Below are positions 2,563 to 23,281 of a stretch of DNA of 64,000 nt, in pieces (position 1 is the stretch's first letter; every line of letters starts with the position of its first letter). The stretch spans positions 1 through 64,000 of the forward strand of contig JAADIQ010000102.1 of NCBI GenBank assembly GCA_013151255.1, written 5' to 3'. The translations under genes and the position numbers were made by a program. The notes beneath the pieces are model-generated. The model saw only the letters and a program-made list of their open reading frames with translations, ran no database searches and was not told the origin of the DNA. The stretch is from Alphaproteobacteria bacterium (GTDB lineage: Bacteria > Pseudomonadota > Alphaproteobacteria > Caulobacterales > Parvularculaceae).

Positions 2563-3009
2563 ATGAGCAAACCAGAACTTGGCATTAAGCGCGATTGCCC
2601 GGAATGCGGCGCGCGATTTTACGACCTCTGCAAAGAACCCGCGCATTGCCCGAAATGCGACCATGATTTCGTTCCCGAAGCCCTCCTGAAGCCGCGCAAA
2701 ACGCGCGCTGAGGAAACCGGCGAGGCCAAACCAAAAGAAGAAGCGGCAAAACCAGCGCAGGAAACCACGCTTAAAAATGCCGATGATGAAAAGAAAGGCG
2801 CGAAGTCAAACCGACGACCCGGGCTTGATGGCGATGGCGATGGCGATAGTGACGATGATGATGATGATGACGAGTTGAGTGAAATTGAAGGCATCACGGT
2901 CGATGTTGAAGATGACGATGAGGCCGACGAAAAGGGTCTTCTGGTTGCCGACGATGACGACGACGACGTAGCCGCCACCATCGTCAAACCCACCGGCGAC
3001 ACGGACTAA
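2563..3009 (+). CDS. TIGR02300 / FYDLN acid family protein
   Basis: A 148-residue conserved alphaproteobacterial protein of unknown function. Two CxxC pairs (CPECGARF at about residue 13 and CPKCDHDF at about residue 30) suggest a small zinc ribbon; the family signature here reads RFYDLCKEP rather than the usual FYDLN. After residue 50 it becomes charged and ends in runs of Asp with Glu, which is typical of the family. It sits directly before tRNA-Ala, a neighbourhood often seen for this family. The Shine-Dalgarno is weak. Confidence 0.9.
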   Translation: MSKPELGIKRDCPECGARFYDLCKEPAHCPKCDHDFVPEALLKPRKTRAEETGEAKPKEEAAKPAQETTLKNADDEKKGAKSNRRPGLDGDGDGDSDDDDDDDELSEIEGITVDVEDDDEADEKGLLVADDDDDDVAATIVKPTGDTD

Positions 3010-3109
3010 GAAGACGCTTGTGCGGCCAGAACCGGACAGCTAGTTTCCATCTTCCGTCTGCGTCAGTTTTGTCTACCGTCGGCTTCCCTTTCCGGCGCGT
3101 TAAAATATC

Positions 3110-3185
<76 letters not shown>

Positions 3186-3532: not shown

Positions 3533-4729
3533 TCAATCCACGACCGACACCACAATGTCGCCAAGGGCGGAAGACCGATACGTAACTTCGTCGCCTCCCT
3601 GCAGGAAATGGCCGGAGGCAAGCTCGTTGTTGATGAATACCTGTATGGCCACCTCCATCAAGTCACGGCCGGCCAGCGGACCGCCTGTTATCAGATAGGT
3701 GAGCAGCGCTTCGATATAGTCATGCCGGACGGGCGGGGTGAAGATCACGCCCTCAGACGTTCCAGACATCAAAGCCATGTCAGCCGCGATACGGCCGTCC
3801 CGCGCAAGGCGATAGAACTCATCCCGGTAGAAAAAGCGCGGCTCGGCCATGTCTGCGAGCACCTTCTCAGTGAGCTGACGGAAATCGAGGATCATCTCAC
3901 CGCCGCGCGCATCCTGCCGCGGCTCGCCATTGAGTTCTGTGGTCATGCGGACATCTGAAACGAAGGCCGCCCAATCCTGCGGTATGACGAGGAAGGGACC
4001 GGTAGGAAAAAAGCCCAGCCCGCTTTTGGCGTCGCTGAAACCATAGCCGGAATCAAGATTATCGGGGTCGACAAGTTCGACCAATGCGGTCCGATTGGTG
4101 AAATCGGAACACAGGAACACGCCCTTCGTTGCGGCGTCAAAGTCTGCCAGAGACGACACATCGCGGTCGAAACGCATGCAGAGTTCAACTTCATAGTCGA
4201 GTAGAACGCCGGGTTCGACTTGGACAATAGTCCGCGCCGGCGTCGCGGCGCCGAACTTCGGGAAGTTGAATACGGAATCGCTTGAGCTCTCTTCGGCGTG
4301 CTCGGGGAAGTTCGTACCGATGCCGATATGGCGGGCGCCGCCGGGACCGGCAGGCAGCAACTGTTCTACGGGCACAACAATCCGCGCGACATCATCCACG
4401 GCCGCATTGCGCAAGCTGTCGCGGGTAACCGCTTCCAGAACTGCAAAGGGATCTTCAAGCCGCGGCGCGCCTAGCTTGAAGAGATCGATACCTGACACGC
4501 GGCCGCTGTCGTAGTCCAAGACCAAGATCGTGGCGGTCTCGCCAGCAGTCGTCTTGAATTGCGCCAGCGTTATCGCCTGATCGGCCCGTGCAACACCCAC
4601 TACGATGGGTTCCGCCTCAAAGCTTGCCGGGTTTTTTTTAGGGTCCGACGACGTCGCCCATGCGATAGCAATCATTAAAACCGCGACCAGCGCCAGACCA
4701 CATAATATAGTCGTTAAACGTCCAAGCAT
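3533..4729 (-). CDS. Fumarylacetoacetate hydrolase-like protein with an N-terminal membrane anchor
   Basis: About 398 residues. A hydrophobic segment (roughly residues 5-25, LTTILCGLALVAVLMIAIAW) is followed by a domain with FAH-family features: LLDYEVELCMRF (the acidic metal-binding region), FLCSDFTNR, and a closing GDEVTYRSSALGDI like the usual GDVV..E..GIG end. FAH family members split C-C bonds of acyl-pyruvates or act as decarboxylases or hydratases. A membrane-anchored, probably periplasmic version is unusual, and its substrate cannot be told. The ATG at 4729 is chosen because GGAGGGGGG lies just before it. No operon partner is evident. Confidence 0.7.
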   Translation of the reverse strand: MLGRLTTILCGLALVAVLMIAIAWATSSDPKKNPASFEAEPIVVGVARADQAITLAQFKTTAGETATILVLDYDSGRVSGIDLFKLGAPRLEDPFAVLEAVTRDSLRNAAVDDVARIVVPVEQLLPAGPGGARHIGIGTNFPEHAEESSSDSVFNFPKFGAATPARTIVQVEPGVLLDYEVELCMRFDRDVSSLADFDAATKGVFLCSDFTNRTALVELVDPDNLDSGYGFSDAKSGLGFFPTGPFLVIPQDWAAFVSDVRMTTELNGEPRQDARGGEMILDFRQLTEKVLADMAEPRFFYRDEFYRLARDGRIAADMALMSGTSEGVIFTPPVRHDYIEALLTYLITGGPLAGRDLMEVAIQVFINNELASGHFLQGGDEVTYRSSALGDIVVSVVD

Positions 4730-13080: not shown

Positions 13081-15584
<2,504 letters not shown>

Positions 15585-15591
15585 GCGCTCC

Positions 15592-15699
15592 GTCCCTACG
15601 CCGGTCTTAACCGATCAGGTTCAAAGGGTGCCTGTGTGACGTTTTCTGAACGGATAGAAAAAACACAGTCTCAGCGGGTTCGGCCCGCGCCCCTCGGAA
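15592..15699 (-). promoter_or_regulatory. TPP riboswitch (THI element) ahead of the thiC operon
   Basis: On the minus strand the conserved parts occur in order: GAGGGGCGCGGG, GCTGAGA (15669-15675 region), ACCCTTTGAACCTGATC, GGTTA and CCGGCGTAGGGA ending at 15593. Between CTGAGA and ACCCTT lies a longer optional stem with CTGTGT/ACACAG ends. The Shine-Dalgarno of the next gene (start 15584) follows directly after the closing stem, so control is probably by blocking translation when TPP is bound. Confidence 0.93.
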
Positions 15700-15785
15700 A
15701 TACTGCACCCTGTCTAGCAAAGGCGCGCGCGGCGAGCAAGGAAAAGCGCGCGGGCCTCAATGCGCACACATTCCGGCAGCCGGCG

Positions 15786-16526
15786 TCAAAAATGCAGCGC
15801 GACGCCGAACAGCAGCTGTTTGGTGAAAAGATCGGTGTCGATTTCAAATGCGCTATTGGACAGGGGCGCATTCACAGGCGTGTAGTTCAATCTGAACTCG
15901 CCATAAAGTGAGACCATATCGTTCAGGGGCAAATCAACGCCAGCCAGCGCCTGCACGGTTGCGCTGCCAATTTCATAGCTGAATGTCGTAGGCAAAGCCG
16001 AAAGCGCGCCGCCCGTCACCTCGACATGCGGAATACTTAGCCCGCCGCCAACACCGACATAAGGTTGAAACTTACTGATCGGCTGAAACCGATACATCGC
16101 GCTTAGCGTTACAAATGAAATGCCGTCGGTAAACTCCAGACGGTCAAACAACGCCGACACCGCATAATCGCCAGGCGCTGCTGCGCTCGCCCCGGTATTG
16201 CCGGTCAACGTGACCGTCGCATCGGAAACCGCGCGTATTTTAGCGTGGGTATAGTCAAGCATCACGCCCCAGCCGGAGCCGTCACTGAACCAATAAGTGG
16301 CGCGCGCCCCCCAATATGGCGAGCCGGCGTTGCCCGGCAGAGAAAGCCCCTGCCACGGTACGTTTTCGATATTGAAATCTACGCCGCCTGGCCCGGTAAA
16401 TTCTACATCGCTTGACGATGTCTGGTTCCAGCCGAGGTGAAGCCCCAACTGAACTTCCGCCGCCGCTGGCCAGGCCAAGCTGAGTATAGCAAGCCCAAGG
16501 CCTCCCCCGATCAATACGTTACGCAT
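15786..16526 (-). CDS. Outer-membrane beta-barrel protein preceded by a TPP riboswitch
   Basis: About 246 residues with a clear signal peptide ending AWPAAA-EVQ. The rest has alternating beta strands and ends in GVALHF, a terminal Phe as in outer-membrane barrels. YWGARATYWFSDGSGWGVMLDYTHAK and FQPYVGVGGGLSIPHVEV resemble the OMP_b-brl superfamily, perhaps LpxQ/OmpW-like members. The ATG at 16526 has GGGGTTGGGG upstream. The TPP riboswitch at 16652-16727 suggests a link to thiamine uptake, which is inference. Confidence 0.8.
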   Translation of the reverse strand: MRNVLIGGGLGLAILSLAWPAAAEVQLGLHLGWNQTSSSDVEFTGPGGVDFNIENVPWQGLSLPGNAGSPYWGARATYWFSDGSGWGVMLDYTHAKIRAVSDATVTLTGNTGASAAAPGDYAVSALFDRLEFTDGISFVTLSAMYRFQPISKFQPYVGVGGGLSIPHVEVTGGALSALPTTFSYEIGSATVQALAGVDLPLNDMVSLYGEFRLNYTPVNAPLSNSAFEIDTDLFTKQLLFGVALHF

Positions 16527-16591
16527 CCCCAACCCCCGTATTATTGCGCATACCCCTATGACGGATACGAGTGTAACCGCTCAGCAATCGG

Positions 16592-16636
16592 TTTCCTCAC
16601 CGCTGCCTAAGCCTTTGGGATCCGGCGATGAGGAAA
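16592..16636 (-). promoter_or_regulatory. Hairpin between TPP riboswitch and beta-barrel gene (likely expression platform)
   Basis: TTTCCTCA at the 5' side pairs perfectly with TGAGGAAA at the 3' side, extended by CGC/GCG on the inside. It lies 16 bases after the TPP aptamer and about 65 bases before the start codon. No T run follows, so it is not a plain terminator. It could be an alternative structure that passes the aptamer signal on. Confidence 0.5.
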
Positions 16637-16651
16637 TCGACTTTGCGTTCC

Positions 16652-16727
16652 GTCCCTCACGCCGGCATGACCCGGATCAGGTGCAAAGGGTTCGTCTCAG
16701 TCCCATAAGCCCAGGCTCGCTCTAACC
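16652..16727 (-). promoter_or_regulatory. TPP riboswitch (THI element) ahead of the beta-barrel gene
   Basis: The minus strand reads GCGAGCCTGGGCTTATGGGA, CTGAGA, then ACCCTTTGCACCTGATCC, GGGTCATGCC and GGCGTGAGGGA. These are the conserved P2-P5 parts of the TPP aptamer in order with normal spacing. The only gene downstream on this strand before another riboswitch is the beta-barrel gene at 15786-16526. The remaining bases up to 16919 show no gene. Confidence 0.93.
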
Positions 16728-16919
16728 TTGTTAGTATGACGCACATGATTTCCGGCGCTCACAAGAGGAGGAAAGAGCGGCAGCCGAAAGATGTGCATCG
16801 CACGAGCTGTCGAACATAGTCGACAGGCGGGACGCCCCTCGGAACAAATAGAGTGTGCTCCGAAACGATGCTTTCTGCAAGTGAATTCGGCGATAGGTAG
16901 GGTTGAAACTAAAGGCGCC

Positions 16920-17420
16920 TTACGGACGATCTAGAATTTCCGGCCAGTTGGCGTTGGCGCGGGCGATGTCGCGGTCTATCTCAGCCAGCCATTCGCGCTT
17001 GTAGCGCTGACTGACATTCAGGAATAGTTTTCCTTCGTATACATACCAAACTTTCGGGTCGCCTTTGGCGAATTTGTCTCGGGCCATCGCCCAGGCGCAG
17101 TAGCCGCCATATTGCGGGCGGTATTGGTCAGGATTGGCTTTAAATTTGGCAAGATTTTCCGCTGATGCGAAGCGCCATTGGGCCCCCTTATAGTCCGTCA
17201 CATAATCATCCGCGCCGGCGACCGGCGCATCGCCTTCGTCAAGCTCAAAATATGCGACAACATCATACCCGCCAACCGCATAGTCCCAGGCGGCGCTGAA
17301 TACGCCGCCTTTGTCGATATAGATCTCCGGGGAGCGCGCTTGCGCCGCCGCAAAGCTGCAAACCACAAAACTCAAGATAGTTATGATCGCTCCACGCATC
17401 GTCTTTGGTCCCGCCTTCAT
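16920..17420 (-). CDS. Exported YHS-domain protein
   Basis: About 166 residues with a signal peptide (AIITILSFVVCSFAAAQA). The YHS-type core follows: VGGYDVVAYFELDEG, DYKGAQWRFASAENLAKFKA, NPDQYRPQYGGYCAWAMA. This matches the common periplasmic family with metal- or haem-related suggestions but no proven role. The ATG at 17420 has AAAGGG nine bases upstream. It is followed on the opposite side by a thioredoxin-like gene on the same strand. Confidence 0.8.
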   Translation of the reverse strand: MKAGPKTMRGAIITILSFVVCSFAAAQARSPEIYIDKGGVFSAAWDYAVGGYDVVAYFELDEGDAPVAGADDYVTDYKGAQWRFASAENLAKFKANPDQYRPQYGGYCAWAMARDKFAKGDPKVWYVYEGKLFLNVSQRYKREWLAEIDRDIARANANWPEILDRP

Positions 17421-21952: not shown

Positions 21953-23125
21953 TTAAAGCGAGGCTTTCGCATCAGCGAAGGCCCAGTCGAGCCAGGGGCA
22001 GAGCGCTTCGATGTCGTCGCGTTCGACCGTGGCGCCGCACCAGATGCGCAAGCCCGGCGGCGCATCGCGGTAACCGCCAATGTCATAGGCGGCCTCTTGC
22101 GCCGCCAGACTTTTTTCCATCGCCTTGACGAAACGACGCTGCTCAGCTTCATCGAGTGCGGTGACCACCGGGTCAGTAATTTTGAGGCATACGGAGGTAT
22201 TGGAGCGCAAGGCCGGATCGGCGCAGAGGAAATCTATCCACGACGTCCGCTCCACCCACTCCGCCAGCATCGCCGCGTTGTTGTCCGCACGCGCATGCAA
22301 CGCTTTCAGGCCGCCAAGACCGGCCGCCCATTTCAGGGCATCGATATAATCCTCAACGCACAACATTGACGGGGTGTTGATGGTCGCGCCTTCAAAAATC
22401 CCTTCAATCAGCTTGCCGCCCTTGGTGAGGCGGAACAGTTTTGGCAACGGCCACGGCGGCGTGTAGCTTTCAAGGCGCTCAACCGCGCGCGGGCTCAAAA
22501 TCAGCATCCCATGACCGCCCTCGCCGCCAAGCACTTTCTGCCAGGAGTAAGTAACGACATCGAGCTTCGGCCAATCGAGCGCTTGCGCAAAAACCGCCGA
22601 GGTCGCATCGCAAATCACGACGCCCTCGCGCTCGGCGCTAATCCAGCCCGCATTGGGGACGCGCACGCCCGACGTGGTGCCGTTCCAGGTGAACACCACA
22701 TCATGGGCGGGATCGACGGCGCTGAGATCGGCGATCTCGCCATAAGGCGCATCAACAATGCGCGCATCGAGCTTGAGTTGCTTCACCGCATCGGTAACCC
22801 AGCCGGCGCCAAAGCTTTCCCAGGCCAGCATATCAACCGGGCGCTCGCCAAGCATCGACCACATCGCCATTTCGACCGCGCCCGTATCAGACGCCGGCAC
22901 AATACCGATGCGGTAATCCTCCGGCACGCCAAGCAGCACACGGGTGCGGTCTATCGCATCTTTAAGGCGCGCCTTGCCGATATTCGAGCGATGCGAGCGC
23001 CCGAGGGGTGCGAGGCTGAGATTTTCAGGAGACCAGCCGGGCCGCTTTGCGCAAGGCCCGGATGAAAAATAAGGGCGCGCAGGGCGCGCCGCGGGTTTAG
23101 CCACCGCTGGCTTCGTGTTTGTCAT
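21953..23125 (-). CDS. serC: Phosphoserine aminotransferase
   Basis: Second step of serine synthesis and also used for pyridoxine. 390 residues, of the longer alphaproteobacterial type. It begins with [17 protein letters not shown], has [17 protein letters not shown] and DATSAVFAQ, and the PLP lysine in [16 protein letters not shown]. It is followed by serA. The leader ahead of it can form hairpins (see 23126-23175). Confidence 0.96.
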
Positions 23126-23175
23126 TTATTCCATCCTTCCAGATGGCAAGCGCCCCGTTGGGGAGGCGTGGCCCG
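23126..23175 (-). promoter_or_regulatory. Structured leader ahead of serC
   Basis: Just before the start codon the minus strand carries a hairpin with CGCC-CCCC/GGGGCG arms (23151-23168), then GCTTG, then a CCATC/GATGG hairpin (23131-23146) and AATAA directly before ATG. Position and structure recall the serC leader motif reported for alphaproteobacteria, but I could not match it base by base from memory. A related hairpin-AATAA layout precedes tkt. Confidence 0.4.
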
Positions 23176-23281
23176 CGATCACCTTTGCGCGCCTGGCGGC
23201 GAGCCGTCAACTGAAAATTTTTCGCGCGGTAATCAGGTTTTCTACCTTGCGCATGGCCACGCGCATCGATAGCGCGTGAGC

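Follow-up and report, generated by a model that had tools for sequence, protein, structure and literature searches.

Sequestration of the ribosome-binding site is a usual platform of TPP riboswitches, and the P3 helix is commonly regarded as the free, variable arm of the aptamer. The accessible parts of the literature describe long, nonconserved insertions and an optional P3a in these RNAs (PMC2258182), extended P3 arms in Klebsiella, Serratia and others (PMC12632268) and a variable P3 in the eukaryotic representatives (PMC6414600). They also record 213 tandem TPP representatives together with ligand-shifted variants for thiamin or TMP (PMC9481103), contiguous TPP elements (PMC12452182) and, in Bacteroides, an outer-membrane TonB-dependent receptor (OMthi) that is under a TPP riboswitch and was tested genetically (PMC5613172). 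The element described here shares with RF00059 the P1-P5 topology with two arms and the CUGAGA/ACCUGA/GGCG core, and lies in the vicinity of thiamine genes, but a conserved domain of several stems is built into its P3 (80-132 nt in 32 loci, 259-261 nt in two) and its downstream gene is not fixed. Extra P3 length is a trait in common with the extended-P3 riboswitches of Klebsiella, Serratia and eukaryotes; as far as the sources consulted go, the arm in those RNAs is variable in length and sequence, whereas the insert of this element is conserved and partly complementary to the P2/P3 strand.

The locus was analyzed within a stretch of 64,000 nt (hereafter, the window), and all window features given below lie on the minus (-) strand. 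A thiC gene (13081-14991; PF01964, 612.9 bits) is preceded by a 198-aa ORF without a Pfam match at E up to 0.1 (14988-15584) and, ahead of both, by a regular TPP aptamer (15576-15704) that is the only TPP match in the window above the gathering score (66.3 bits in Rfam). The 3' strand of P1 in this regular aptamer carries a GGAG close to the ATG of the 198-aa ORF, so that direct occlusion of the site by the aptamer is likely. The original prediction was silent on this RNA, which is located on the other side of a small outer-membrane beta-barrel ORF (15786-16532; PF13505) with a listed TTG start and an ATG at 16526. The genome (assembly 92% complete) contains two TPP matches, the regular aptamer and a weak second element upstream of the barrel. 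The Rfam match to the second element (16635-16723), at 35.3 bits and E 8e-5 with 1.5 kb searched, is below the RF00059 gathering score of 54.3 bits, as in its relatives (about 33-52 bits).

Once the surroundings of the weak TPP matches were aligned, the absent 5' half came to light upstream of the match in each of 28 loci. The complete TPP aptamer of the window comprises 199 nt (16647-16845) and runs from P1 (GUUCCG/CGGAAC) through P2 (GGGG/CCCU) and P3 (GUCCC/GGGAC, with the nested domain inside) to P5. It is because of the insert in P3 that the Rfam match lacks the 5' half and scores under the gathering threshold; one insert can thus make a complete riboswitch score as a weak half-match. The original prediction of a well-formed TPP aptamer ahead of the barrel was right in that a TPP-aptamer-like RNA is real and is directly followed by the barrel gene on its strand, but 'well-formed' does not suit the predicted stretch, which captured only the 3' part of an RNA that is complete at 16647-16845 with a 124-nt insert. 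The core between P3 and P2 (CUGAGA, 16695-16700) and the ACCUGA and GGCG of the P4/P5 arm (ACCUGAUCCGG...CCGGCG..AGG, 16655-16682) are invariant in 27 of 27 loci. These three motifs make up the conserved core around the ligand of RF00059.

Comparative evidence for the structure comes from an alignment (A1) of 27 of the 34 element loci, which omitted L061 and six further loci; one additional candidate (L067 in genome G034, an 18.9-bit match) had been dropped before alignment. Standard pairs fill 96.0% of the pair cells, compared to 32-44% when the partners are slid by 1-3 columns, and eight pairs show changes on both sides. None of 500 shuffles reached the observed values, except for the pair types, which nine of them reached. 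P3 itself is invariant and, therefore, adds nothing to the covariation. For the 199 nt of the window, the minimum-energy fold coincides with the proposed aptamer structure; unconstrained minimum-energy folds contain P3 in only 11 of the 27 loci, and enforcing the aptamer costs 0.3-9.8 kcal/mol. The folding energy of the region 16530-16740 was no better than that of shuffled sequences (z -0.84; 36 of 200 equally good) and, taken alone, would not reveal the element. Judged by its structure and its core sequence, the second element is a TPP aptamer, and as such it would be expected to bind TPP. A decayed copy of the thiC aptamer, as the weak Rfam match might suggest, is ruled out by a complete aptamer that is intact and covarying.

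The 5' part of the aptamer can also adopt an alternative hairpin (16793-16837) that pairs GCGUC with GAUGC in the window, and with GACGC in most relatives, and is incompatible with P2/P3. RNAalifold favours this GCGUC/GACGC pairing over the first 55 columns, to the exclusion of P2/P3. In the alignment, 96.3% of its cells are paired, with mostly invariant columns, and its changes on both sides are confined to an inner hairpin that is common to both folds. The first 56 nt of the window's RNA fold into the alternative hairpin, which is kept in none of the 27 full-length minimum-energy folds. These folding predictions make an early anti-aptamer fold possible. Upstream of the aptamer, a -35-like motif (CTTGC, 16877-16881) sits 32-36 nt from the first aptamer base (16845) as part of a putative promoter. 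The CTTG is held at a constant distance, with one base of play, in 34 of 34 loci, which places the probable start of the RNA at P1 or immediately beside it. An E. coli-type scan returned no promoter in 15500-17000.

The domain nested in P3 (16705-16828) occupies the 124 nt between GUCCC and GGGAC and consists of a closing stem, a hairpin (GUCGA/UCGAC), an arm (GCUC/GAGC and GAUGCACA/UGUGCGUC) and a variable tip. An insert-only model, R2, found a single strong copy per genome in 32 of 62 family genomes, always at the coordinates of the element, and scored the long inserts of G029 and G074 at 22 bits in the same place as the element. It also gave a 27-bit match in G033. Among the matches listed, there was no convincing copy of the domain outside the element in the 62 family genomes or in 384 other genomes of the class; two matches of 26-27 bits in the latter resemble coding sequence. 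Nor did Rfam offer a credible further family over 15500-17000, nested domain included. Hits to mir-791 (on the strand opposite to the downstream hairpin HP1; 24.2 of 70 bits) and sR44 (15.1 of 45 bits) in this region were rejected as far under gathering. In the portions of the TPP riboswitch literature that were surveyed we did not find a conserved domain nested in P3, which is no proof of its absence from print. The conserved, structured P3 domain is a newly seen feature, in one family only as far as sampled. Since pairing between its 5' part and the P2/P3 strand is possible, the nested domain may delay or tune the folding of the aptamer. Conservation of sequence and structure within P3 suggests, more generally, that the arm itself can be regulatory, for example as a co-transcriptional brake on aptamer folding or as a second input. 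Two other long P3 arms came to light: a TPP aptamer from another genus (L156 of G084, 2650-2950) has a long P3 of different sequence, and a 157-nt TPP match among the class genomes (L138 of G390) has its own extended P3, both without an R2 match. Extended P3 arms may, therefore, have arisen more than once.

The element is present in 34 of the 62 genomes of the family, which we assigned to Parvularculaceae by the named matches, and in the same neighbourhood, a recurrence that speaks against chance. Covariance model R1 scored above 140 bits in 32 of them and at about 63 bits in G029 and G074, which have the longer insert. An exact pattern of the aptamer 5' part recovered 32 loci in genome contigs, the taxa named being Marinicaulis, Amphiplicatus metriothermophilus, Parvularcula and Parvularculaceae or, for some, just Alphaproteobacteria. 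Among the matches listed, R1 found the element in none of the 384 other sampled genomes of the class, and its best other match in the 385 class genomes (own included) was a plain aptamer of 70.4 bits over 73 nt; these searches scored a small number of candidates in each genome and listed the best matches, so that a copy whose insert is far longer, as in G029 and G074 at about 63 bits, could escape them. Within the genus, TPP matches number two or three in 25 of 28 genomes (own included), the second-best scoring 35-52 bits and the third ones being chance-like at 18-20 bits, whereas G025 has one match and G001 and G010 have none. The element apparently can be lost, because it is absent from the inspected loci of G025, G063 and G066. 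A literature search, with subscription papers mostly outside its scope, found no report on a TPP riboswitch in Parvularcula or Marinicaulis.

Downstream of the aptamer is the separate hairpin that had also been predicted, which we call HP1 (16587-16641) and which proved to be real and covarying. Its 3' arm carries a Shine-Dalgarno-like GAGGA (16594-16598). Across 31 of the 34 loci (alignment A4, omitting L032, L061 and L155), 97.4% of the pair cells are standard, compared to 39-68% in slid pairings, and five pairs show changes on both sides. A pattern scan had recovered HP1 in 29 loci, with a doubtful site in L032, and missed L061, L150, L151, L153 and L155; a later search recovered it in L150, L151 and L153. 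We read HP1 as a hairpin that hides a ribosome-binding site because two outgroup loci have an HP1-like hairpin after a TPP aptamer with a GAGGAG 10 nt ahead of a start codon: that of thiC in L156 and, in L154, that of an ORF which by eye resembles the 198-aa ORF of the window. The L154 aptamer (genome G069, 3693-3880) is of the plain type, with a short P3 that lacks the long insert, and lies with its hairpin 2.4 kb upstream of the regular aptamer, an arrangement that is possibly the form preceding the P3 insert. We rejected an ordinary intrinsic terminator as the function of HP1, since the window scan gave no terminator-like site and no steady T-run was seen by eye; in a few loci, also by eye, four T's follow the hairpin. 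Conservation as a peptide-coding region was discarded as well, as some loci share an open frame and others with paired changes do not (by eye).

Folding of the 319-nt leader of the window with ViennaRNA produced two states. In the free fold (-120.7 kcal/mol) the 5' arm of HP1 is paired with the aptamer (p 0.99), and the GAGGA has an unpaired probability of 0.80-0.95. When the aptamer is enforced (-113.8 kcal/mol), HP1 forms (p 0.80) and the unpaired probability of the site drops to about 0.2. Over the 31 loci, the duplex between the HP1 arm and the aptamer had a median rank of 13th of 200 shuffles and was in the best 5% in only 12; this ranking is suggestive and not uniform across loci.

Given the conserved structures of aptamer and hairpin and the two computed states, we favour, with moderate confidence, a TPP riboswitch of unusual build with a promoter of its own that works as a translational OFF switch and contains a nested domain in P3. 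Its transcript would start at P1 and form the standard TPP pocket (P1-P5) with the structured domain in P3. TPP would hold the aptamer together, so that HP1 would form and mask the GAGGA as a ribosome-binding site. When TPP is lacking, the HP1 5' arm would instead pair with the 3' half of the aptamer and leave the site open. The repression under plentiful thiamine that had been proposed originally agrees with the two-state fold, which predicts repression once the aptamer is formed. In the window, the barrel would probably come under TPP repression by way of a short, translationally coupled leader ORF. Six nucleotides past the GAGGA, a TTG opens a 22-codon frame (16519-16587) whose TAA overlaps the barrel start at the ATG (ATGCGTAA). 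The leader ORF may couple translation of the barrel to the GAGGA site, a tentative reading of an arrangement limited to two near relatives, the window and, with one step more, L052. In the latter locus, whose barrel is 94% identical to the window's, the first frame has 15 codons and a second frame (by eye) reaches the same overlap of stop and barrel start.

Downstream genes vary across loci. The GAGGA is followed by a start codon 5-11 nt on that leads into an ORF of at least 190 aa in six of 29 loci (L034, L036, L037, L041, L046 and L049); most loci have no properly spaced start after the GAGGA that opens a long gene. Five of the six ORFs belong to the NAGPA cluster and that of L049 to another cluster of probably secreted proteins. 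From ORF clusters and codon-use scores, read by the author, about 12 of the 34 loci lack a direct same-strand gene. In seven of the 34, the first gene is on the opposite strand (L033, L047, L051, L055, L061, L064 and L152), and in five the stretch up to the regular aptamer, or the first 800 nt, contains no supported gene (L032, L048, L054, L149 and L063). A same-strand gene follows the element in the other 22, including an uncertain case (L150) and a gene that looks interrupted (L039). In L046 the codon score favours a minus-strand ORF, and the NAGPA gene was retained on homology. The mean R1 score is 171.4 without a following gene (n=11) and 169.6 with one (n=21; Mann-Whitney p 0.58), in a comparison that left out L061 and L155 with their larger insert. 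Because scores do not differ in the absence of a following gene, conservation of the RNA is independent of any one gene, which trans action, a tandem arrangement with thiC or slow decay could each explain.

SreA, Rli55 and EutX are riboswitch RNAs that act in trans. They resemble the element in being riboswitches kept without a dedicated downstream gene and differ from it in their ligands; for the element, a role in trans is only a candidate. By this account, aptamer and HP1 would make up a stand-alone, TPP-sensing small RNA while downstream genes come and go. The R1 scores of the 12 loci without a direct same-strand gene, which are no lower, and the recognizable HP1 in 10 of them (all except L032 and L061) argue for it. 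We nevertheless hold it to be rather unlikely: no conserved terminator was established after HP1, and the gene insertions may be too recent for the RNA to have decayed. In L054, moreover, a 27-codon frame after HP1 (3009-3170) looks by eye like the beginning of a NAGPA gene; it seems to be a remnant of that lost gene, next to an RNA that is intact. The same-strand ORFs of L048, L061 and L149 lack codon-score support, and a real small gene in any of them would cut the count of 12. Also doubtful is an extended version, a free-standing TPP-sensing RNA kept for itself in Parvularculaceae, with a second regulatory domain nested in P3, while its neighbours, the barrel included, are exchanged; the nested domain might then be a second sensor, bind a protein or act as an anti-aptamer. 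Persistence of the RNA without a following gene provides a test case for TPP sensing outside cis control.

A tandem arrangement is improbable, in our estimate. The element would then be the upstream member of a spaced pair, its transcript continuing into the regular aptamer and thiC to pass two TPP gates in series. In all 28 loci with both RNAs on one contig, the two share a strand and the element is found 352-7073 nt upstream of the regular aptamer; in four of these loci (L149, L054, L032 and L048; 352-901 nt) they are not separated by any supported gene. Tandem TPP riboswitches are known and, as far as the source was accessible, likewise line up a pair of TPP elements along the same strand close to thiamine genes (PMC9481103); in contrast, the elements studied here are 0.35-7.1 kb apart, often with genes between them, and differ in build. 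Read-through is made less likely by a median spacing of 3.2 kb and by opposite-strand genes that intervene in several loci. Furthermore, the purA-thiC neighbourhood is retained in L060, in a genome with a single TPP match, and, therefore, the proximity of the element to thiC may be plain synteny.

The least probable account makes the barrel a pore through which thiamine or a precursor is taken up. The barrel ORF does score above cut-off for PF13505 (38.3 bits) and PF02462 (21.9 bits), but not for OmpW (13.8 bits), and matches no TonB-receptor family at E up to 0.1, in agreement with the original description of a small beta-barrel other than a TonB-dependent receptor. TPP-riboswitch control of outer-membrane thiamine transporters has a precedent in the TonB-type receptors of Bacteroides; according to the accessible text (PMC5613172), OMthi is, like the window barrel, an outer-membrane gene after a TPP riboswitch, but the window barrel is of the small PF13505 type. 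The pairing of aptamer and barrel, for which a search in relatives had been proposed as a check, is limited to four of the 34 element-bearing loci, with the barrel as immediate next gene in three and behind a NAGPA gene in L041. All four barrel-bearing genomes, of 62 in the family, have the barrel at the element locus, and the family yielded no further homologue at E up to 1e-10. Among the 384 other class genomes there was a single homologue (G335; residues 120-248 at 39% identity), and the surrounding 3.4 kb contained no RNA family scoring above gathering. AlphaFold2, given four sequences, returned no usable fold model (pLDDT 28.7), and sequence searches for solved relatives gave only weak matches (NspA, E 0.1; AlkL, 0.51) among antibody chains. 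Searches of the genome for two transporter families weigh against the pore as well: PF04973 identified one PnuC-type transporter (L169 on contig C29, 1456-3116), for which nicotinamide riboside is a likelier substrate than thiamine because a NadR-like gene (by eye) adjoins it, and TIGR01254 gave only a 35.1-bit match against a cut-off of 93.4. In the literature searched, with subscription papers mostly outside its scope, we found no report on a TPP riboswitch with an outer membrane protein in Alphaproteobacteria. With the barrel not found in 30 of the 34 element-bearing genomes, it is a current, lineage-specific neighbour of the element rather than a conserved partner, which leaves the thiamine-pore reading unsupported and, in our view, very improbable.

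Several neighbouring genes deserve mention in their own right. A secreted NAGPA-type gene often comes after the element (L034, L036, L037, L041, L042, L044, L046, L056 and others); the sole member tested, that of L056, matched PF09992 with 74.9 bits. A gene of the same type stands between the regular TPP aptamer and thiC in L157. A search without a positive control gave no NAGPA homologue in the window's genome. The literature, again with subscription papers mostly outside its scope, yielded no report tying riboswitch and thiamine to a phosphodiester glycosidase. The recurrence of NAGPA-type genes beside TPP elements may reflect a link between this family and thiamine. Near the place of the element, L047, L051, L152 and L151 have a DsrE-like gene on the opposite strand (PF02635 match on the L151 member), as does L158, which has no element. 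Elsewhere in the window, an ordinary serC leader (23126-23178; RF00517, 58.3 bits) directly precedes the ORF at 21953-23125.
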